Source: Acholeplasmataceae bacterium
GTDB lineage: Bacteria; Bacillota_I; Bacilli_A; Acholeplasmatales; Acholeplasmataceae
Assembly (NCBI GenBank): GCA_030603805.1
Contig: JAUVXD010000008.1
Coordinates: 1 to 64,000, forward strand
Direction of reading: 5' to 3'
DNA length: 64,000 nucleotides
Below are positions 4,975 through 16,643 of the stretch, piece after piece (position 1 is the first letter of the stretch; every line of letters begins with the position of its first letter). The notes under the pieces are model-generated. The model saw only the letters and a list, made by a program, of their open reading frames with translations, was not told the origin of the DNA and did not search any database. The position numbers and the translations under genes were made by a program.

Positions 4975-6099
4975 ATGAGTATGAAATACACATCAGATTT
5001 AAGGACAGAAATTATCGACCTATATAAAAAAGGATGGAACATCACAAAATTATCCAATAAATTCAAGATACCAAGAACAACCATATATCACTGGATTGAT
5101 ATGCAAATCGAAAAACCTCTAAATGAGTTCTCTTTAACAAGAAGAGATGTTTATGATAATCAATTTAAACTTGAAAGATTGGAACTCATCAATACAATAC
5201 AGCATTTTGTAATATCAATGCTTGATATATCTAAAGAGAAAAAACTTGAGCTTGTTTACTTACTTGCAGAGAAACTTTATCCCATTAAAACCATATGTAG
5301 AGTACTAGGGATGCAACCATCCACCTTCTATCATGACAAAAATAGAAAACCTGAGGTATATCTAATTGATGAAGCTGATGATGAGTTTAAATCACTCATT
5401 CAATCTATCTTTAATGAATCAGATGGTAGGTTTGGTGGAAGGAAGATACGCATTCAATTAGTCAAGGATGGTCATATCATTAGTCACCAAAGAGTACTTA
5501 GATTGATGAAAGAAATGGATCTCAAACCCAATCTACCCGATGAAAACTATAATAACTATCATAAAAGAAAATATGCTTATAAACCGAACATCATTTCAAA
5601 ATCAGAGTTTTACCCTGAAATCAATAAGATATGGGTAAGTGATATTACATATATACGTGTTCGAAAAGAGCATTATTATTTGACTGTGATCATCGACTTG
5701 TACTCAAGAAAAGTGATTGGTCATCAACTAGCAAAGACATTAGGCTCTTCTGAATTGATTGAACTGATGAGGATAACCTTTCAAATCAGAAATCAACCTA
5801 AGGAACTTATTTTCCATAGTGATCAAGGTTTACAATATACTGCAAAAGCTTTTAAGTCCTATCTTAAGCAAAATAACATAACACAATCATTTTCTAAGAA
5901 AGGTTGTCCATACGATAATTCTGTTGCTGAAAGTTTTTTCGCAAGTATCAAGAAGGAAGAAATATATAGACACATCTACAATAGCTATGATCACTTAAGA
6001 ATTTGTATTGACGAGTACGTCATCTTCTACAATGAAAAACGTCCACATGCTTCCCTAAAATATTCGACACCCTCTGAGTATGAGTTTACGTTTACATAA
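4975..6099 (+). CDS. IS3-family transposase, single-frame (OrfA-OrfB in one reading frame)
   Basis: The 374-residue protein has an N-terminal helix-turn-helix (about 5-45), a linking region with an HTH_21-like segment (GRFGGRKIR near 151) and a C-terminal integrase core. The DDE triad is visible as D223 (WVSDITY), D283 (HSDQG) and E319 (NSVAESFF), giving the D-D-35-E spacing. Most IS3 elements need a programmed -1 frameshift between OrfA and OrfB; here one continuous frame encodes both, as in some mycoplasma elements. All catalytic residues are intact, so the enzyme may be active. Confidence 0.9.
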   Translation: MSMKYTSDLRTEIIDLYKKGWNITKLSNKFKIPRTTIYHWIDMQIEKPLNEFSLTRRDVYDNQFKLERLELINTIQHFVISMLDISKEKKLELVYLLAEKLYPIKTICRVLGMQPSTFYHDKNRKPEVYLIDEADDEFKSLIQSIFNESDGRFGGRKIRIQLVKDGHIISHQRVLRLMKEMDLKPNLPDENYNNYHKRKYAYKPNIISKSEFYPEINKIWVSDITYIRVRKEHYYLTVIIDLYSRKVIGHQLAKTLGSSELIELMRITFQIRNQPKELIFHSDQGLQYTAKAFKSYLKQNNITQSFSKKGCPYDNSVAESFFASIKKEEIYRHIYNSYDHLRICIDEYVIFYNEKRPHASLKYSTPSEYEFTFT

Positions 6100-6192: not shown

Positions 6193-6281
6193 TGGCGGAG
6201 GAAAGGGGATTTGAACCCCTGCGCCTTTGACAGCCTACGAGCTTTCCAAGCCCGCCTCTTCAGCCACTTGAGTATTCCTCC
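6193..6281 (-). tRNA. tRNA-Ser (anticodon GGA)
   Basis: On the minus strand the acceptor arms GGAGGAA and TTCCTCC pair, the anticodon stem CGGGC/GCTCG encloses the loop TTGGAAA (anticodon GGA), and a long variable arm typical of serine tRNAs precedes the GGTTCAAATCC T arm. The CCA end is encoded. Confidence 0.95.
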
Positions 6282-6286
6282 ATTTT

Positions 6287-6364
6287 TGGCGCACCCGACA
6301 TGAATTGAACATGCGACCTTAACCTTCGGAGGGTTACGCTCTCATCCAACTGAGCTACGGGTGC
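6287..6364 (-). tRNA. tRNA-Arg (anticodon CCG)
   Basis: On the minus strand the acceptor arms GCACCCG and CGGGTGC pair, the anticodon stem TAACC/GGTTA holds the loop CTCCGAA (anticodon CCG), and the CCA end is encoded. It lies 5 bp upstream of tRNA-Ser and is probably co-transcribed with it. Confidence 0.93.
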
Positions 6365-6560: not shown

Positions 6561-7304
6561 TTGAGTAAACCCATATTTAATCGTTATGAGCGAAAATATC
6601 TCGTTTCGACAAAGCAAAAAGATGAACTCATCTCCTTCTTTAAAGAGCATTTGATTGATGATCCTTATTCAATTGATGGAAACCACTACACCATTTATAA
6701 TATTTATTTTGATACACCTGACTTTAGTATCATTAGAAATTCTATTCAAAAACCTGTTTATAAAGATAAACTGAGACTGAGGGCGTATAAATTTCCACTA
6801 GCACCAGAAGATATGGTTTTTCTAGAAATAAAGAAAAAATATGAGGGTAGAATTAACAAGAGGCGTGTCAATTTGACATACAAAGCAGCTTTAGATTATT
6901 TAAATTTAGGTATCTTTCCAACGATTGAAGATTATGTAGAAAAACAAGTCATGAATGAAGTTGACTATTTTATTAAAATTCATAAGGCAACACCTGGTGC
7001 TTTTATTCGATATGATCGCATAGCTCTCATGTCTCCAAAAGACGATTTTAGAATCACTTTTGATCATAATATCATCTTTAGAAATAAAGATGTCAGCTTG
7101 GATAAAAATGGTGGCCATCCCATTCTTGATTCAAAAGATTATTGGCTAATGGAAGTCAAAAGCGAAGATAACTTCCCATTCTGGCTAGCTAGAAAATTAT
7201 CCGATTACGAATTATACAGTCAAAGCTTTTCAAAATATGGAAAAGCTTACCAACACTACCTATCAGGAGGCACAACAGATGATTACATACTTTATCACTA
7301 TTAG
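6561..7304 (+). CDS. VTC-domain protein, probable polyphosphate polymerase
   Basis: The 247-residue protein is a single VTC domain, the catalytic fold of the yeast vacuolar polyphosphate polymerase Vtc4 (triphosphate tunnel family). Tunnel-type basic residues are visible: RYERKYLVS at the start, KLRLRAYKF near 75, EIKKKYEGRINKRRV near 95, IRYDR near 150 and the acidic LMEVKS near 198. Bacterial VTC proteins are usually encoded with DUF4956 membrane proteins, as here, where the next gene begins inside this one. The pair is therefore likely to make, and perhaps move, polyphosphate at the membrane. The start follows AGGAGG. Confidence 0.85.
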   Translation: MSKPIFNRYERKYLVSTKQKDELISFFKEHLIDDPYSIDGNHYTIYNIYFDTPDFSIIRNSIQKPVYKDKLRLRAYKFPLAPEDMVFLEIKKKYEGRINKRRVNLTYKAALDYLNLGIFPTIEDYVEKQVMNEVDYFIKIHKATPGAFIRYDRIALMSPKDDFRITFDHNIIFRNKDVSLDKNGGHPILDSKDYWLMEVKSEDNFPFWLARKLSDYELYSQSFSKYGKAYQHYLSGGTTDDYILYHY

Positions 7305-7965
7305 CATGGACACTATTACACTAGGAACGCTCCTTGCTGTTTTAGCTACATCAACCATTTTAGGGGGCATACTCAGTGCAGTTTATGTATTCACGCACAA
7401 ACAAACAGTTTATGACTCATCATTCTCGATGACACTATTTTTACTTCCCTTAGTCATTTCAATCATTGTTTTACTCATTTCAGACAACCTAGCTAGAGCT
7501 TTTAGCTTAGCAGGTGTCTTCACACTCGTTCGTTTTAGAACTGCCATTGCAGATTCAAGAGATATCACTTATATCCTAAGTACTGTGGGTATTGCGTTAT
7601 CTTCTGCCATGGGTTATATCGGTCTTGCTCTAATTATTACTGCATTCATCAGTACTATCTTACTTATTCTTCATTTTCTTAAGCTTGATCGTGATAAGAC
7701 CAATCATGCAAAACTGAAAATAATTATTCCCGAAAATTTGAATTACTCCAATGTATTTGATGATATTTTCAAGAAATATGTCCATAGTTTTCAACTCCAA
7801 AAAGTGAAAACGACAGACTTTGGAACCATGTTCGAACTCACTTATTTAATCAAGTTAAGATTAGATGTTGATCAAAAAGCATTCTTAGATGAACTGAGAG
7901 TTAGAAACGGAAACTTATCAATTACACTTACCTCAGATTATGTTTCTGTGGTCAGCGAACTTTAA
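7279..7965 (+). CDS. DUF4956 membrane protein paired with VTC domain protein
   Basis: The 228-residue protein has four hydrophobic segments in residues 8-130 and a soluble C-terminal domain of about 90 residues, with the conserved FTLVRFRTAIADSRDITYI stretch typical of DUF4956. The ATG at 7279 follows AGGAGG by 8 bases and overlaps the end of the VTC gene; an in-frame upstream ATG at 7237 lacks such a site. The family's function is unknown; association with VTC polymerases suggests a channel or anchor for polyphosphate synthesis. Confidence 0.85.
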   Translation: MITYFITISMDTITLGTLLAVLATSTILGGILSAVYVFTHKQTVYDSSFSMTLFLLPLVISIIVLLISDNLARAFSLAGVFTLVRFRTAIADSRDITYILSTVGIALSSAMGYIGLALIITAFISTILLILHFLKLDRDKTNHAKLKIIIPENLNYSNVFDDIFKKYVHSFQLQKVKTTDFGTMFELTYLIKLRLDVDQKAFLDELRVRNGNLSITLTSDYVSVVSEL

Positions 7966-8171: not shown

Positions 8172-9503
8172 CTAAGACTTTGCAAGTGAACCCATGGGGT
8201 CCCATGGTTTTAGTTCAATCGGCTTTTGTTGCCAAGCAGAAAGCTGTTCTTTAGATAAATATTTCGTATGAATCACCGCTTGATAAATATAACGATCAAA
8301 CCACGTATCCGTAGCAAGATAATACCCTTTTAAACCATTTGCATCGCCCCAACTGTTTTCTATTTTCCAGCGATTTGGTTTTTTGTTTACATCCAAATTA
8401 ACACCAGTGAAAACCATGGCATGATTCATCGCACCTTGTGAATAATCGAGTTCATCAGCTTTTGACATGGTGAGATTCATTTCAAGCATTGATTCATAAT
8501 CAAATTGTTGATCGTCCCATATACCTGAAATTCGGTCTCCGTACCTTGCAACATCTGCACCAAACCAAACCAACTCCTTATTGAGTAATTGCTTGAGTAC
8601 AAGATCTTTCAAATGATTGATGTCAAGATTTAAATATTTGATGGGTCTTCCACCAATGACATTGCCTAGGTATTGGACTGTATAAGTTTTCATATAGGGT
8701 TTATCAGAGGTTGGTGCGTGGATAATGGATACAAAATCCTTTAATGTATCTCCACCATACTCTTTATAAAACTGAACAGGTGTTAAGTTTTTAATTAAAT
8801 GATATTCATCTTTAGATACATACTCAAAATCAATGGTTTGAGGTGGCATCCCAAAGTTAGTAACTAAGAATGTGTAAAGTTCTTCTAAAACGGATGCTTT
8901 TAAAGATTTCAAATCTTCAGTTTGACCGTTTTGATGTAGTCTTCTTGCATCTGCAGCATATTTTCTAAGTTTCACGTTAATTAAACGATTCATAAAAGCT
9001 GTTCCACTCGATGATGTGGTTTCTACCATCGCTTCTTTAGGGACAATACCATACTTTTCAATTAAAGATACAAACATATCCCATTGACCACCATCTTGGA
9101 TGCCAGTTTTTAAGATATATTGAAGGGTGCGATCATCTTGATCAACTTCTAAAAAATCATCCATGATTTCTAAGAAATAGTTGATTTTTTCTAGTTTATC
9201 ATAAAATGCTGTATAGTTTTGTGATAACTCAAAATCTTTGAGTTCATAACGATTGGCAATGGTTTCTCTAATTAAATTTAAACCTGCAAAAATCCAGCAT
9301 CTACCACTTTGTTTTTGGTAAGTTACAGGTAGAGTTTTAATCTCATGAGAAAATCTAAATTGTGTTGATGGTTTACTTTCTGCTTTATCAAAAAGATTCA
9401 CAAGCTCATTTTTTACTAAAACACGTCTGAGTGCTTGTTGAACTGGTTTTTTTTGATACTTTTCTTTTAAGACATTTAATTCTTTTATACTTATATCTTT
9501 CAT
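8172..9503 (-). CDS. pepC: Aminopeptidase C (bleomycin hydrolase family, peptidase C1B)
   Basis: The 443-residue cytosolic cysteine peptidase matches the usual PepC length. The catalytic residues are visible: Cys69 in QSGRCWIF, His361 in MNHAMVF and Asn383 in ENSWGD. PepC forms hexameric barrels and trims peptides from the N terminus, helping an amino-acid-dependent organism use imported peptides. It follows the jetC gene in the same direction, but a strong hairpin at 9529-9551 separates them and pepC has its own GGGGAG ribosome site, so it need not belong to the SMC operon. Confidence 0.95.
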   Translation of the reverse strand: MKDISIKELNVLKEKYQKKPVQQALRRVLVKNELVNLFDKAESKPSTQFRFSHEIKTLPVTYQKQSGRCWIFAGLNLIRETIANRYELKDFELSQNYTAFYDKLEKINYFLEIMDDFLEVDQDDRTLQYILKTGIQDGGQWDMFVSLIEKYGIVPKEAMVETTSSSGTAFMNRLINVKLRKYAADARRLHQNGQTEDLKSLKASVLEELYTFLVTNFGMPPQTIDFEYVSKDEYHLIKNLTPVQFYKEYGGDTLKDFVSIIHAPTSDKPYMKTYTVQYLGNVIGGRPIKYLNLDINHLKDLVLKQLLNKELVWFGADVARYGDRISGIWDDQQFDYESMLEMNLTMSKADELDYSQGAMNHAMVFTGVNLDVNKKPNRWKIENSWGDANGLKGYYLATDTWFDRYIYQAVIHTKYLSKEQLSAWQQKPIELKPWDPMGSLAKS

Positions 9504-9528
9504 TTTTTTCTCCCCTTTTTTATGAGAA

Positions 9529-9556
9529 AGAGATGGCTGTTCGCCATCTCTTTTTG
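9529..9556. terminator. Hairpin between jetC and pepC
   Basis: AGAGATGGC and GCCATCTCT form a perfect 9-bp stem with a five-base loop. The T run is longer on the plus strand, but on the minus strand TTTC follows, so it probably ends or weakens the jetABC transcript before pepC. Confidence 0.65.
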
Positions 9557-9562
9557 TGGATT

Positions 9563-12500
9563 TTAGACGCGAAGCATGCGATCATCTTTAAATGTTTCAA
9601 CAATCGCATAGTCATTATCTTTAACGATAACTAACGATGTATTCACATAGTTAATGATATTAGAGACACGTTGTGGTGGTACAGCAATAAAGAGCTGGAT
9701 GGATAAGCTATTATAAAATTTCATCATCGCATCAATTCTAGATTCATCCATGTTATTGAACGCTTCGTCAAATAAGACGATACAGCCAGAGTCCACACGT
9801 CTATTTTTAGTTAAGAGTTGTTGGAAGGATGCTGCAATAACGATATAAAATGGTACTTGAGTTTCCCCACCACTCTTTTCTTTGGATACTTTGGAGAATA
9901 AAGATTTATTACCGTTCTTATTGGTCACTTCAATATCATAAGACATATAATTTCTATAGTCTAAGAATTTATAGGTGAGCATATCGTATTCCGGATCATT
10001 TGATGCAATCTTTTCAAAAAGTTCCATCAATACTTGTTCATGCTTTTTTGTAAGTCCTTCAGTAAATAAGGTATGTTTTGTAATCGCATCATTACTCATG
10101 ATAATTTCATAATAGACTTTATAATCTGGATTATCAGATGCCTTATAAATCAGTTGATAGGAGTCCGTACCAAAGGTTTTATCTTGTAGCGCGAAATTGA
10201 GCTCTTCAATTTGTTGTTGTGCATTTTCAATAGATGCTCTAAGCTTTCCAACAAATTCTTCCTTAAAGCCAATTTCTGAACTCTTTCTCAGTTCACTTGC
10301 CTCTTGTTCGTAGCGAATCAAGTTATTATTTCTAATCATTTGAGCTTCTTGCTCAAAATAAATTAAATGCTCAAAATCCGGTGCAGCACCAAAATGATAG
10401 TTTGTAATATAGGCTTTCATCATATTGACTAAATCCGCACCAGCTTTAATGATTTGTGAGTTTAAGCTGACATTTGAAGACGCAATATATGAGCTAATTG
10501 CATCATGGTCGTGCTGATGCTTCATTTTTAATGCATAAAATTGTGTATTTGCGAGTGATAATTTTTCTGGATGTTTTTTGGCAAGTTCTTTTTGAGCATC
10601 CATGAACTGATCCAGTTTATCTTTGATTTCTTCAATATGGTCTCTGATGCGTTGTCTTTCATCGCGATGTGTTGCAATTTCTCCAACAAGTTTATCCGAA
10701 TCAAGACGTAGTTGCTTGCGATGGCTCTTTTCTTTATCGATTTGTTCATCAATTTTGGCAAGATTCTTATCTTTACCAAGACCCAAGAGTTGTTCTTCAA
10801 TTTGCGTGTATTCTTTTCTAGTTTGTTTAATCAAATCGATAAATCTTAATTGTCCTTGGTGAACAAGTTGATTGCTCTTAGAAGTGTTTAATAAACGTAA
10901 AATACGATCATTTTTATCGGATAAGTCGTAGAGTTTATCCATCTTATCTTCAAGTTCAGCTAAATGCTTTGATTCTTGATCGAGTTGGATATTGGTTGCT
11001 TTAGAACCGATAAAAGGCACTTCATAGGTTCTTGGATTAATTTGACGTGCGGTATGGTTGCTATAGGTCATACAGGTTGGTGTAATCGCACGACTAAAGT
11101 TTTTTAAATCTTGGACATGTTCGACACAATAGGTATTGTTTAATGCCATGTTGATATAATATCTTGCGTAAAGATGGTCTGTTGATACCTTTTCAGCTAG
11201 AGTATTCACATTCACTGTTTCAAATGCAGTTAATTTTTGAGTGTTCACAAGACCAACACCATAGATTTTTTGCTCGAATTTCACTCGGTCATAAATTTCT
11301 AGTGCATCATTAAAATAGGTCGGATCAACAATAATGTCAAAGCGTTGTGTGTTTAAATACCCTTCAATAGCATTTCTCCATTTTTCATCATTGATTTCGA
11401 TGAGTTCACACAGCGGTTGAACTCTCACATCCTTGTTATAATGGCTAGATAGCTCCTCATTTAAGGTTCTAATCAAGTTTTCTACATAAAATGGGTATGT
11501 CTTAACGTGACGCTTCAATTGGCTTAAACGTTGTTGTGAGATGCGAATTTGTTCAGATAATTCTCTTTTTTCTGTTTCTAATTTATCTTTTTCAGAGTAA
11601 TAAGCTTGAATATAGGCAGAGACTTCAGTGTTTAAAACAGATAGATGTGAAGAAAGTTCTTGTTGCGATAAGGACTCTTCATTGGTTTGATAATAGGAAA
11701 CAAATTGCTTCATGGCTTGATTGGGCAATAAATTAATCAGTTCCTTAATGGTTTGAAATTCTTTTTGAAGTGCTTGTTTGAGTTGAGAAAGTGCTTCTTT
11801 TTGTGTTTCGTATTCGTTTGCCTTTTTTTGAAGTGCATCTTGATAGGAAGTCATTGTTCTGGATAAATCAGAATCACTTTTTGCACGTTCAAGGTTTAGA
11901 ATCGCTTGATCAGCAGCTTCAATTTGCTCATCAATTTGAGCTTTCGCTTCTCTTAAATAATCGAGTTGTTTTTCGATTTGAGTCAGTTTTTCTTCGTTAT
12001 CTTTAATAAATGCTTCTCTTTTTTCAACCCAGTTTAATTGATCTATAAGTTCATTGACACCTAGTTGTTCTTTATTGATGGTGATATCTTCGCCTGTTTG
12101 ATTGATTTTATCGAGCTGCTCTAACTTTTCTTTATCCTTTTTGATTTGTTGTTCAACTTTTTTAAGCTGTGCAACATTGTTTTTTAAGGATTGAATATCA
12201 ATTGGGTCATCATCTAGCAAAAATTCAAAAACAAAGGCTTGAAGATCAATCGAACGAAAGGCTAACGCTTTAGGCAATATTTTTGCATATTTGGTTGCAT
12301 CCATACCAAAAAAGCGTGCGAGTGCATCACGATATTTCTTTTGTGATTCAAATGGCGAAAACTCAACATCCATCGATTTAAGATAAGCCTTCATGCTCTT
12401 AAAATCTCTTGGATATTTCTTTTCTAGAAAAAGGCTATCATGAATTGAGACATTTTCTAAAAGATAAAATCTTTCTTTGAGTTGGGATGCTTTAGGTAGA

Positions 12501-12838
12501 TCTAAGACACAACCAATGACAGAAAATTTCTTAGATTGTTCATCAAAAAACTCTAAAGCAAGATGAGTAATGACATCTCCGCTTCGAAGATATTCTTTAT
12601 TCTCAGCGCCAATTCGTCCTCGAATATAGCCTTCAAGCGTTCTTTTGGCATCATCGGTTGCTGCAATATTAAATTTTGAACCACTTCTGCCTCCAACAAA
12701 TAAATACTGCATGGCATCAAGTAATGTTGATTTTCCTGATCCGTTTTCACCTGAAATTAAGGCATTATCTTTGATTTCGATGGTTTGGTTGGAAAATAAG
12801 TGCCAGTTAACAAGTTTAATCTTCGTCAGTTTCTTCAT
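9563..12838 (-). CDS. jetC: JetC/MksB-like SMC-type ATPase of a Wadjet-like complex
   Basis: The 1091-residue protein has the layout of MukB/MksB/JetC condensins. The P-loop GENGSGKST is at residues 30-38, long coiled coils flank a central hinge (about residues 470-640), and the C-terminal head carries the signature KSGGETQ and Walker B IVLFDEAFNNMDESR. In the Wadjet system JetC is the motor that extrudes DNA loops with JetA (kleisin) and JetB, and JetD cuts small circular plasmids. The start at 12838 follows GGAGG and overlaps the end of jetB; an in-frame GTG/ATG start farther upstream (12874) would sit deep in jetB. No jetD gene lies beside it. It could instead serve chromosome organisation like MksBEF. 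Confidence 0.88.
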   Translation of the reverse strand: MKKLTKIKLVNWHLFSNQTIEIKDNALISGENGSGKSTLLDAMQYLFVGGRSGSKFNIAATDDAKRTLEGYIRGRIGAENKEYLRSGDVITHLALEFFDEQSKKFSVIGCVLDLPKASQLKERFYLLENVSIHDSLFLEKKYPRDFKSMKAYLKSMDVEFSPFESQKKYRDALARFFGMDATKYAKILPKALAFRSIDLQAFVFEFLLDDDPIDIQSLKNNVAQLKKVEQQIKKDKEKLEQLDKINQTGEDITINKEQLGVNELIDQLNWVEKREAFIKDNEEKLTQIEKQLDYLREAKAQIDEQIEAADQAILNLERAKSDSDLSRTMTSYQDALQKKANEYETQKEALSQLKQALQKEFQTIKELINLLPNQAMKQFVSYYQTNEESLSQQELSSHLSVLNTEVSAYIQAYYSEKDKLETEKRELSEQIRISQQRLSQLKRHVKTYPFYVENLIRTLNEELSSHYNKDVRVQPLCELIEINDEKWRNAIEGYLNTQRFDIIVDPTYFNDALEIYDRVKFEQKIYGVGLVNTQKLTAFETVNVNTLAEKVSTDHLYARYYINMALNNTYCVEHVQDLKNFSRAITPTCMTYSNHTARQINPRTYEVPFIGSKATNIQLDQESKHLAELEDKMDKLYDLSDKNDRILRLLNTSKSNQLVHQGQLRFIDLIKQTRKEYTQIEEQLLGLGKDKNLAKIDEQIDKEKSHRKQLRLDSDKLVGEIATHRDERQRIRDHIEEIKDKLDQFMDAQKELAKKHPEKLSLANTQFYALKMKHQHDHDAISSYIASSNVSLNSQIIKAGADLVNMMKAYITNYHFGAAPDFEHLIYFEQEAQMIRNNNLIRYEQEASELRKSSEIGFKEEFVGKLRASIENAQQQIEELNFALQDKTFGTDSYQLIYKASDNPDYKVYYEIIMSNDAITKHTLFTEGLTKKHEQVLMELFEKIASNDPEYDMLTYKFLDYRNYMSYDIEVTNKNGNKSLFSKVSKEKSGGETQVPFYIVIAASFQQLLTKNRRVDSGCIVLFDEAFNNMDESRIDAMMKFYNSLSIQLFIAVPPQRVSNIINYVNTSLVIVKDNDYAIVETFKDDRMLRV

Positions 12839-13460
12839 TGTCGTCTGAACCTCCTTCAGATTCCATATAACCATCGAGTTTCGATATGACTTCCTTGATG
12901 CTATCTAGATTGGTGATGTAGAGAATGGTTGGGTATATTTTGATACGGGCATCATCGTGAAGCCCTTTGTCAATGTAATCAATAATATTATAATTTCTAA
13001 GAAAACTCAAAGCAGGTTTTAATTTATCTTTGGTTATTCTTTTATGGTCTAAATAACCAATTCTTGTAAGTTCTGCGTGGATTTCATGTAAGAATATTTC
13101 AACATTTTCATCCAAAGTAACGTAATCTTTTTTACGTTGATAAATAATTCTAATGACTAAAATCATGACACTTTCGGTTTTTCTAAGTCTCATATGATTG
13201 AAAAGATTGTCGTTTTGAATATATACGACTTCATCTTCTCTTTTGATATTCAGACTAAAATCAGAAAGTGCAAAGAATGTTTCAAAAGCATCCTTAAAGG
13301 CTAAGATAAAACGGTAGTCATTGGTATCTCCGGGTTTTCTTTTTGTTAGAAAATTGACCTGAAGGAGTTTATTAACAATGCGTGAAAAATTCGATTTTTC
13401 ACCTTCTTTTAAGCTACCATATTCTTCATTAAAAATTTTAAGTGCTGCGGTCTTGTTCAT
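12816..13460 (-). CDS. jetB: JetB/MksE-like subunit (DUF4194)
   Basis: The 214-residue protein looks like the DUF4194 JetB/MksE family: tandem winged-helix architecture, with the region LRKTESVMILVIRIIYQ near 92-108 and LKPALSFLRNYNIID near 146-160 typical of the first and second winged helices. JetB dimers bridge the JetA kleisin and the SMC heads. It starts by an ATGA overlap with jetA and ends in an acidic tail that overlaps the jetC start. Position between the JetA-like and JetC-like genes supports the call. Confidence 0.82.
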   Translation of the reverse strand: MNKTAALKIFNEEYGSLKEGEKSNFSRIVNKLLQVNFLTKRKPGDTNDYRFILAFKDAFETFFALSDFSLNIKREDEVVYIQNDNLFNHMRLRKTESVMILVIRIIYQRKKDYVTLDENVEIFLHEIHAELTRIGYLDHKRITKDKLKPALSFLRNYNIIDYIDKGLHDDARIKIYPTILYITNLDSIKEVISKLDGYMESEGGSDDNEETDED

Positions 13461-14839
13461 CGTCTAACCTCTTTAATTCTAAAGTTTTGGAAAGTCACGA
13501 AATTGTTTTTACATTCTTTGCCCATCAGTTCCACATCATAGTGCATCCCAATGGATTTGGAGTAGAGGAAAATTAAGATGAGTTTCACAAAATCCTCTTG
13601 GGTTTCTAAAGGTACGTGTGCAGCTTCAATGACTTTATCCTTAGCTAGAAGTGCTTTAACGTATTCATTGATTTCTTTTTTACCGTAAATGTTGTTTTTA
13701 AGTAGTGCTTTAATTTTCTCTTGACGATATTCTTCCGTGATGAAATCATCATCAAAATTAATTTCTTCTGGGATTGGTTCAATGCGCGATCTTCTTTGGT
13801 TATATAAGGAGTAAGTATCTAGATTTCTTGCTTGTGTTAAGTTAAAGAGAGTTGTGTAATCGAAATCTTTTTTCGATAAAACAAGTTTGAAAAGTCTATT
13901 GAAAATCCCTTCAATATCATCAGACTGATTAGTGAAAAAAAGAATTTTCGATGCAGCAGCTGTGATATATTGCTCATTTTTTCTGTCAATAGCAAGAATT
14001 AAGTGCTCGAGGGCTGCAAATGAATCGGTAATAAATCTAAGTCTGTCTTCAACAAAATGGAAGGCATCATTATAATCTTCGATGCGTTTAAGCTGTTGGG
14101 CTTTAATCGCGAGCTGATCCATGATTTCATCATCATTTAAAATATGATTAATGACATCTAAAATGGACCTTTTATACCTTGGTAGTGAGTCGGTTGTTTT
14201 TAAGTTATAATAAGCACTGTCAAAGAAGTTTTGCTTATATTCTACTAAAAGCTTTTCTAAAAGCATTTGCAAATCATGTTTGGATTGTTTTTTGGTGATG
14301 TCATAGTAATATCTATAGATATTAGCTTTTAAAGATTTGAGTTTTCTTAGGATATCATTGGTCTTCATGTACGCTTGTTCAAGAACACCAATGCCTTCTT
14401 CAACGGTAAATGAATTCAAAAGAGAATACACAGTGAAAATCTCACCTGTATATTCTGATTGGCGGTTATCTTTGATGCGTTCGAGCACATCGATGATTTG
14501 GATGGAATAGTCAAATAAATTCAGCGAGGTCTTATAATCGCCAAGCTCTTCTTCACCGAGCCAGCCGTTTTTCTTTAAGACATTAATCACATGAAGTGCT
14601 TTTTGTCTCGATGTTCTTGCAGGTTCATCTTCATCGACATCAAGAAAATCATCATTGGGTACCTCATCGAAGTAATCGATCAGCCTAGAAATGATATATT
14701 CTCTATCCCCCTGAAAAGCATCCTCAATGGTATCGATAGCATGATAAATGATGAAAATGCAATCGATGTATGTCTTTTTATTAGGGGAGGAAAGCACACT
14801 GAAAAAATTGCTGTTGATGGTTTCAAACAAATGTGCCAT
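13457..14839 (-). CDS. jetA: JetA/MksF-like kleisin subunit (type II-like, DUF5716)
   Basis: The 460-residue protein starts with a winged-helix-like region (FETINSNFFSVLSSPNKKTY) and is mainly helical, with C-terminal segments (about 360-460) that in this family bind the SMC head. I recall this type as DUF5716, the JetA form of type II Wadjet. It is the first gene of the jetA-jetB-jetC operon, with AAGGAGG at good distance and a possible -10 (TACAAT) at 14889-14894. The helicase gene upstream reads in the same direction, and its 3' end is 94 bp away, so some read-through is possible. Confidence 0.8.
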   Translation of the reverse strand: MAHLFETINSNFFSVLSSPNKKTYIDCIFIIYHAIDTIEDAFQGDREYIISRLIDYFDEVPNDDFLDVDEDEPARTSRQKALHVINVLKKNGWLGEEELGDYKTSLNLFDYSIQIIDVLERIKDNRQSEYTGEIFTVYSLLNSFTVEEGIGVLEQAYMKTNDILRKLKSLKANIYRYYYDITKKQSKHDLQMLLEKLLVEYKQNFFDSAYYNLKTTDSLPRYKRSILDVINHILNDDEIMDQLAIKAQQLKRIEDYNDAFHFVEDRLRFITDSFAALEHLILAIDRKNEQYITAAASKILFFTNQSDDIEGIFNRLFKLVLSKKDFDYTTLFNLTQARNLDTYSLYNQRRSRIEPIPEEINFDDDFITEEYRQEKIKALLKNNIYGKKEINEYVKALLAKDKVIEAAHVPLETQEDFVKLILIFLYSKSIGMHYDVELMGKECKNNFVTFQNFRIKEVRR

Positions 14840-14932: not shown

Positions 14933-16564
14933 TTATTTTCTGACAATCTGAACTTTAATCTTTTTGCCATTGAGCGTTTTACCATTTAAGTCTTCTAAAC
15001 GCTTAATTGCAGCTGGATGAATTTGAAATTCTGTTTCATTGGGATAGACATTAATATCTCCAACATTCTTTGCAAACATATCAGCATGCTTCTTAAAGAA
15101 GTCGAGAAGTGTGACTGGGCGAATACCATCTTGCTTGCCTAAATTGATAACCGCTGTCTTGTAATTCGTTGGGCGATTAGACGATTTGGAATCTCTTGAT
15201 TTTGAGCCTCTATCTGTAGGTGTTTGACGATCACGCTCGACTTTTTTAGATGCAGGTGCTTCAATGGAATCATAGGTCTTCTTTTCAACAGATAGGTTAG
15301 ATAAGAGACCGTTGATAATCATCTCATCATCAAAACCTTCAAGGCGAAGTTTTTCAATGACTTCAGGGTATGTCGTTTCATTTTTTTGAATGAGTGACTT
15401 GATGTGTTTAAAGTTTCTTGATTCCCGCTTTTGGTTAATCATCTCTTCTGTTGGGTATTCAAGTTCAGTCATCTTGGTCTTAATGAAGCGTTCAATCATT
15501 TGGAGTTTCCCTCTCATACTTGGGTAAACAAGTGAAATGGAAATGCCTGATTTACCTGCGCGACCTGTTCTTCCAATACGGTGAACATAAAGTTCATCTT
15601 CAAATGGAATTTCATAGTTGATGACCATATCGACGTGTGAGATGTCAAGACCTCTTGCAGCCACATCAGTTGCAATTAAGAATTTAAGCTTTTTCGATCT
15701 AAATCTTGTCATGACATAATCTCTTTGACTTTGTTTTAAATCGCCATGAAGCGCATCAGCTTCATAGTTGTGTTTTTGCAAGTAGGCTGAAAGTCCATCA
15801 ACATCAAGTTTTGTGTTTGCAAATATGATGGCAGATGCAGGATCATAATAGTCGAGAAGTCTCACGAGCAGTGCATCACGATCTTGCTTTTTGACGTTGT
15901 AGTAAAATTGGTCAATCTTATCTACAGTCAGTGTCGGTGCTTCAATCTTGATAATCTCAGGATTGTTTTGATACTTTTTCGCAACATTCTTAATAAATGG
16001 TGGAATGGTTGCTGAAAAAAGTGCTGTTTGTCTATCTTGGGGTGTATCCTTTAGAAGTCGTTCTAAGTCTTCTTGAAACCCCATCTTTAACATTTCATCT
16101 GCTTCATCCATGACTAGGATTTTTAGATTAGAAAAATCCAATGTCTTGCGATCTAGATGATCAATGGCACGGCCAGGTGTTGCAACAATGATTTGTGGGT
16201 TTTCTGAGAGTGCTTTAAACTGTTTGTTATAAGATTCTCCACCATAAATCGATGTAATTTTGACATCCTTGTTAAACTTGACTAACTTGATAAATTCCTT
16301 GTATACCTGAAGGGTGAGTTCACGTGTTGGGCAGATCACTAAAGCCTGCACTTTTTTATTGGTAACATCGATTTTCTCAAGGATTGGTATCGCAAATGCG
16401 AATGTCTTTCCAGTGCCTGTCTGAGCTTGACCTATAAGGTCCCTGCCATCAAGCATTTTTGGAATCGCATGATGCTGTATCGATGTCGTTTCGACTAATC
16501 CCAAGTGTTCAATGGCTAATTTTGTTTCTGTTTTGATTTGTAATTCATTAAATAATAGATTCAT
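14933..16564 (-). CDS. DEAD-box ATP-dependent RNA helicase with DbpA-type RNA-binding domain
   Basis: The 543-residue protein has the full DEAD-box core: Q motif, AQTGTGKT (motif I), PTREL, DEAD, SAT and HRIGRTGR (motif VI). A helical extension and a C-terminal DbpA-like RNA recognition fold (about 465-543, starting INLGKQDGI) follow. Relatives are CshA/DeaD proteins that remodel RNA in ribosome assembly and mRNA decay, consistent with the RNase J gene elsewhere in the window. The ATG at 16564 has GAGG upstream; an in-frame TTG at 16576 overlaps that site and is unlikely. Which paralog (CshA or DeaD) cannot be decided from this view. Confidence 0.92.
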   Translation of the reverse strand: MNLLFNELQIKTETKLAIEHLGLVETTSIQHHAIPKMLDGRDLIGQAQTGTGKTFAFAIPILEKIDVTNKKVQALVICPTRELTLQVYKEFIKLVKFNKDVKITSIYGGESYNKQFKALSENPQIIVATPGRAIDHLDRKTLDFSNLKILVMDEADEMLKMGFQEDLERLLKDTPQDRQTALFSATIPPFIKNVAKKYQNNPEIIKIEAPTLTVDKIDQFYYNVKKQDRDALLVRLLDYYDPASAIIFANTKLDVDGLSAYLQKHNYEADALHGDLKQSQRDYVMTRFRSKKLKFLIATDVAARGLDISHVDMVINYEIPFEDELYVHRIGRTGRAGKSGISISLVYPSMRGKLQMIERFIKTKMTELEYPTEEMINQKRESRNFKHIKSLIQKNETTYPEVIEKLRLEGFDDEMIINGLLSNLSVEKKTYDSIEAPASKKVERDRQTPTDRGSKSRDSKSSNRPTNYKTAVINLGKQDGIRPVTLLDFFKKHADMFAKNVGDINVYPNETEFQIHPAAIKRLEDLNGKTLNGKKIKVQIVRK

Positions 16565-16643
16565 TTTTTTCCTCAATTCTTTTTAAACCTTACATACTAT
16601 ACCATACTTTTTAATATAATACTACCATAAAAGAAAAAAAGGC

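Follow-up and report, generated by a model that had tools for sequence, protein, structure and literature searches.

A Wadjet type I core lacking its nuclease, probable housekeeping condensin of Acholeplasmatales

The stretch of DNA analyzed here (the window, 64,000 nucleotides) comprises positions 1 to 64,000 of contig JAUVXD010000008.1 from an Acholeplasmataceae bacterium (GCA_030603805.1). Its positions 9563-14839 hold an operon on the reverse strand that encodes JetA, JetB and JetC of the Wadjet type I family. The kleisin subunit JetA (MukF/MksF-like, 460 amino acids, 13457..14839) matches PF18982 (E=4e-86) and the PADLOC model JetA1 (326 bits), and its gene is immediately preceded by the ribosome-binding site AAAGGAGG. 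The KITE subunit JetB (MukE/MksE-like, 214 amino acids, 12816..13460) matches PF13835 (DUF4194, E=2e-23), PF21980 (MksE, E=9e-6) and PADLOC JetB1 (215 bits). JetC, the ATPase of the structural maintenance of chromosomes (SMC) type (MukB/MksB-like, 1103 amino acids, 9563..12874), scores 1098 bits with PADLOC JetC1 (PDLC00519), in a match that covers 1090 of 1097 positions. The jetA and jetB genes overlap by 4 nucleotides and jetB and jetC by 23-59; the conserved start of jetC is probably the in-frame ATG at 12838. The Pfam and PADLOC matches and the gene overlaps bear out a previous sequence-only reading of the window, which had described a JetA-, JetB- and JetC-like trio in tight overlap. That reading had also reported an intact SMC ATPase, and all of its motifs are present in JetC on the reverse strand: Walker A (GENGSGKST, 12725..12751; G, N, G and K invariant in the alignment), the ABC signature (SGGET, 9860..9874, read as SGGETQ) and Walker B (VLFDEAF, 9758..9778).

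Structural comparison required profiles, as a single-sequence phmmer search against the PDB gave no match. A family profile built from 24 JetC relatives matched JetC of the E. coli Wadjet (8as8) end to end (E=1e-49), with MukB next. The JetA profile found no sequence relative in the PDB, and its relatives emerged by fold only: the AlphaFold model of JetA (pLDDT 72, moderate confidence) had MukF and E. coli JetA as its best fold matches, and that of JetB (pLDDT 85, good) had MukE and JetB as its best PDB matches. The assignment of the trio to JetA/MukF, JetB/MukE and JetC/MukB relatives therefore survives comparison at both the profile and the fold level.

In known Wadjets, JetABC detects small circles through loop extrusion and then triggers JetD. 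As the sequence-only reading had stated, no JetD lies beside or near jetABC here; its suggestion that JetD might be encoded elsewhere is refuted for the source genome (2.06 Mb, 38 contigs, 99.9% complete), in which profile searches with both domains, JetD_C (PF09983) and DUF3322 (PF11795), found no JetD in the whole assembly. Across the order Acholeplasmatales (160 genomes), the model that gave none in the source genome detected JetD in eight genomes, and JetA was found in 127. A JetC search of the JetA-negative genomes added G019, G036, G042, G058, G134 and the JetD-linked G152, bringing those with JetA and/or JetC to 133. Within the family Acholeplasmataceae (f1, 88 genomes), JetD occurs in one genome and JetA in 68. 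JetA or JetC is present in 53 of 54 family members when phytoplasmas and genus g14 are set aside, in 19 of the 29 phytoplasmas (genus g11, 'Candidatus Phytoplasma') and in none of the five g14 genomes, which are incomplete. The remaining families carry them in 55/55 (f2), 3/3 (f3) and 1/1 (f5) genomes; in f4 the count is 2/13, both JetD-linked. JetABC without JetD, hereafter orphan jetABC, is the rule in Acholeplasmatales.

Several genomes that do encode JetD retain the orphan genes as well. In G023, G096, G109, G111 and G121, JetD is the last gene of a full jetABCD operon located apart from a separate orphan jetABC, and G133 retains orphan jetABC with JetD on a different contig. The JetD-bearing defence copy is sporadic, and orphan jetABC is core. 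The Acholeplasmataceae genome G023 (locus L112) has a full jetABCD and an orphan jetABC, so that the defence copy and the orphan can be compared inside a single genome. We also considered the IFDR motif at the JetB N-terminus, a JetD contact, as a marker of JetD loss; it proved uninformative, because JetD-linked JetB proteins of the same clade are missing it too.

The surroundings of the operon are themselves conserved. On the reverse strand, outside the complex, a DEAD-box RNA helicase with a DbpA C-terminal RNA-binding domain (14933..16576) lies upstream and the aminopeptidase gene pepC (Peptidase_C1_2, 8172..9503) downstream, both assigned by Pfam and synteny; in the gap between jetC and pepC we read a terminator-like hairpin of 13 pairs (9525..9555). 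These neighbours had been named correctly from the sequence alone, and the block helicase-jetA-jetB-jetC-pepC is retained in fixed order across relatives of the genus group. In the family at large, the gene after jetC varies by genus (pepC, ptsI, a helicase or unrelated genes). In Acholeplasma sensu stricto it is ptsI instead of pepC, and at the loci L016, L017, L018, L026, L030 and L145 this gene (phosphotransferase system enzyme I) starts a few bases past the jetC stop codon, a spacing that suggests co-transcription of the two genes.

Sequence comparisons pointed to long-term retention. Between the window and the locus L001, JetC, JetA and JetB are 82%, 80% and 85% identical, whereas pepC reaches 73% and the helicase 74%; prfB (82%) was the sole other compared gene of the block that is as conserved as jetABC. 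The ratio of nonsynonymous to synonymous substitution rates (dN/dS) is about 0.06-0.07 for this pair, with dS near saturation, and 0.01-0.02 for the close pair L010-L011. All three ATPase motifs are intact in 65 of 65 orphan JetC sequences. JetA and RecN distances agree (Mantel p 2e-4), and the corresponding trees share four of seven splits (random mean 0.4, p 8e-4). Orphan jetABC is under strong purifying selection; it is conserved like housekeeping genes and has been vertically inherited over the long term.

We then asked about the canonical condensin, for which the sequence-only reading had named smc, scpA and scpB as genes to look for. Profile searches found neither ScpA nor ScpB, nor any Smc hinge outside JetC, the latter two within the scope of the family. 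ScpA was detected in 0 of the 160 genomes of the order, and the same search was positive in nine control genomes, among them B. subtilis and Lactococcus. Among the 88 family genomes, ScpB never rose above the cut-off, and the SMC-hinge model gave seven weak matches, all of them within JetC frames. For SMC_N, the best matches in 21 genomes fell in RecN-sized (~550 amino acids) and RecF-sized (~350 amino acids) frames, followed by transporter-sized ones; among the matches listed, the frames of ~1,100 amino acids coincide with JetC, and there was no other SMC-sized frame. The RecN of the source genome was read directly. A frame of 1,024 amino acids in G148 is SbcC adjoining SbcD, as judged from its sequence and neighbour. 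The minimal mycoplasma JCVI-Syn3A, in contrast, retains Smc-ScpAB (PMC13142093).

The 'smc' genes of phytoplasma mobile units were considered as the missing condensin and rejected, as the two long coiled-coil frames read carry neither a Walker A nor a signature motif. These frames (L186, 1164 amino acids; L187, 1319 amino acids) encode long, lysine-rich coiled-coil proteins, apparently membrane-anchored, that are not SMC ATPases, and they are probably the source of the 'smc' annotation in such units (PMC6148798).

Two further patterns concern how the orphan genes are arranged outside the genus group. In the sister family f2, sepF directly follows jetC in 14 of 14 loci read (L147, L149, L150, L128, L177, L129, L121, L115, L148, L119, L130, L131, L113 and L117), usually overlapping it or within a few bases; ileS often comes next after sepF, and ychF often lies upstream. 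SepF connects the Z ring to the membrane, and its position directly after jetC ties orphan jetABC to a gene that is part of the core of cell division. The phytoplasma genomes concerned measure 0.5-0.8 Mb, and at the loci read jetA is on its own, with jetBC located elsewhere. That these reduced genomes have split the operon yet retain all three genes argues for a function independent of JetD.

Given these results, we consider it probable that this nuclease-free Wadjet type I core serves as a housekeeping SMC condensin in place of Smc-ScpAB. A housekeeping chromosome condenser was among the options that the sequence-only reading had left standing; the genomic evidence now supports it, since Smc-ScpAB was not detected and orphan jetABC is syntenic, under strong purifying selection and vertically retained almost everywhere. 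The evidence also suggests the conversion of a defence machine into a housekeeping one. In a cell without Smc-ScpAB, JetABC would be the natural choice to compact the chromosome and resolve its sisters. If it works as Wadjet and MukBEF do, JetA would bridge two JetC dimers; this assembly, together with pairs of JetB, would load on the chromosome and extrude loops using ATP, and the complex may thereby aid the compaction, resolution and segregation of sister chromosomes. A motor without JetD would only extrude and hold loops; with no cutting step, we propose, circular DNA would be spared.

Several observations weigh against this interpretation. The absence of Smc-ScpAB is an absence by profile, and for ScpB and the hinge its scope is the family only. 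The searches covered Acholeplasmatales, which leaves the loss of ScpAB unplaced on the tree. Around ten phytoplasma genomes, several of them in one contig, have neither ScpA nor JetABC, and in the f4 genomes G146-G150 and G153-G158, several of which are ~99-100% complete, ScpA, JetA and JetC1 were all unmatched. Because both complexes are missing from these phytoplasmas and from most of f4, an SMC condensin is not indispensable in the order. One of these f4 genomes, G148, is a single contig of 1.88 Mb.

Alternative roles have to be weighed against the same evidence. JetABC could still act in anti-plasmid defence, with some other nuclease or effector, encoded elsewhere, replacing JetD. The complex is Wadjet by sequence, and the neighbourhood alone is insufficient to exclude an unlinked host nuclease. 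However, no conserved partner follows jetC in the family, the partner in f2 is sepF and not a nuclease, and the orphan genes are near-universal, syntenic and slow-evolving where JetD-bearing copies are sporadic, all of which makes such a defence role quite improbable. Since the gene after jetC differs by genus, we rejected a substitute effector adjoining jetC for the family, and the earlier suggestion that plasmids might be restricted via another effector is unsupported there. No nuclease at all would be required if JetABC silenced or sequestered extrachromosomal DNA rather than organizing the chromosome, on the model of Smc5/6, which does this to viral circles in human cells. We regard this as improbable: it would accord with known systems, in which JetABC is the sensor of shape and size and JetD merely the cutter (PMC10586767), but it leaves both the absence of Smc-ScpAB and the coupling to sepF unexplained.

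The remaining alternatives bear on whether the complex matters to the cell, and whether it works alone. The lack of JetABC in some phytoplasmas might indicate a decaying Wadjet remnant, on its way out once JetD had gone. This is scarcely credible, and already contradicted, given the intact motifs of every orphan JetC, dN/dS values well below 0.1 and retention throughout the family as well as in genomes that have undergone strong reduction. Another arrangement would be an accessory second condensin beside a very divergent, undetected Smc-ScpAB; P. aeruginosa carries MksBEF plus Smc-ScpAB (PMC7485682). Such a pairing is very improbable here, as ScpA was absent from all genomes of the order, no hinge lay outside JetC in the family, no SMC-sized frame except JetC stood among the SMC_N matches listed, and the long coiled-coil frames that were checked proved to be either SbcC or devoid of ATPase motifs.

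The JetC tree places the f1 orphans, including those of phytoplasmas, in one clade (99/99) and those of f2/f3/f5 in a second (100/100), and the JetD-linked copies, one of them from a Bacillales metagenome-assembled genome, group with f1. A single clade for all orphans was rejected (approximately unbiased test, p = 9.5e-5), which makes two or more losses of JetD probable; the branches are long, which calls for caution, and some copies may instead have regained JetD. The neighbourhoods of the f1 and f2 orphan groups also differ. An upstream gene of 366 amino acids in both had seemed to mark a common ancestral locus, but it is prfB in f1 and ychF in f2, and therefore no synteny is common to the two. 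A fuller scenario, which we judge to be evenly balanced between true and false, holds that JetD was lost at least twice, once in Acholeplasmataceae including phytoplasmas and once in f2/f3/f5, each loss yielding the only SMC condensin in replacement of Smc-ScpAB, and that the jetABC-sepF operon of f2 may link chromosome folding to the division ring. An origin of MukBEF and MksBEF from an anti-plasmid system through JetD loss has been proposed, not demonstrated (PMC10586767); if our scenario is true, that proposed origin of MukBEF would have been repeated in nature a second and a third time.

Elsewhere in the window, a gene for a VTC-domain protein and an overlapping one for a DUF4956 membrane protein (6561-7965, forward strand) run opposite to pepC and are kept in many relatives. 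An IS3-type transposase gene (4975-6099, forward strand; type judged from sequence) adjoins tRNA-Ser and tRNA-Arg genes at 6193-6364.

Members of the Wadjet group that have no JetD are already known, namely MukBEF, P. aeruginosa MksBEF and 'several other' cases (PMC10586767; PMC7617805). JetD-less operons are catalogued in PMC7617805, and those of acholeplasmas may be among them, in its supplement. Our literature search, which left that supplement uncovered, found no report of Smc-ScpAB absence in Acholeplasmatales or of its replacement by JetABC. As far as could be checked, the new part is a bacterial order across which the only SMC condensin detected is a Wadjet type I core. Up to 2023, there was no documented case of a JetABCD complex acting on a chromosome (PMC10586767). 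Acholeplasma offers a direct test bed, combining a Wadjet type I core with no nuclease and no competing Smc-ScpAB detected, and testing is favoured by the culturable species A. laidlawii and by close relatives with a full JetABCD beside the orphan copy. Defence-annotation models such as those of PADLOC, which match JetA, JetB and JetC here, can mislabel a housekeeping condensin as Wadjet.

The closest known system is Wadjet type I itself (JetABCD/MksFEBG; E. coli GF4-3, 8as8 and 8q72; P. aeruginosa PA14, 8dk2), which has the same kleisin, KITE and SMC subunits, the A-B-C order of overlapping genes and a JetC of ~1100 amino acids, and which gave the best PDB profile match. Here, in contrast, JetABC has no JetD in the operon or the genome, is core and syntenic instead of sporadic, and resides in a host without detected Smc-ScpAB. 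MukBEF of enterobacteria is likewise a Wadjet-group complex that has no JetD and replaces Smc-ScpAB (PMC10586767; PMC7617805), but it belongs to a different phylum, and JetC here has 1103 amino acids, compared to the 1486 positions of the MukB model; with 36 bits against the MukB equivalog NF003422 (cut-off 699) and 1098 bits against JetC1, this is not MukBEF proper. MksBEF of P. aeruginosa, also without JetD, acts on the chromosome (PMC10586767), with a role in segregation (PMC10586767; PMC7617805), yet it coexists with Smc-ScpAB, whereas JetABC is the sole SMC condensin found here. The Smc-ScpAB of Bacilli has the same presumed function as this JetABC and differs from it in its subunit families.
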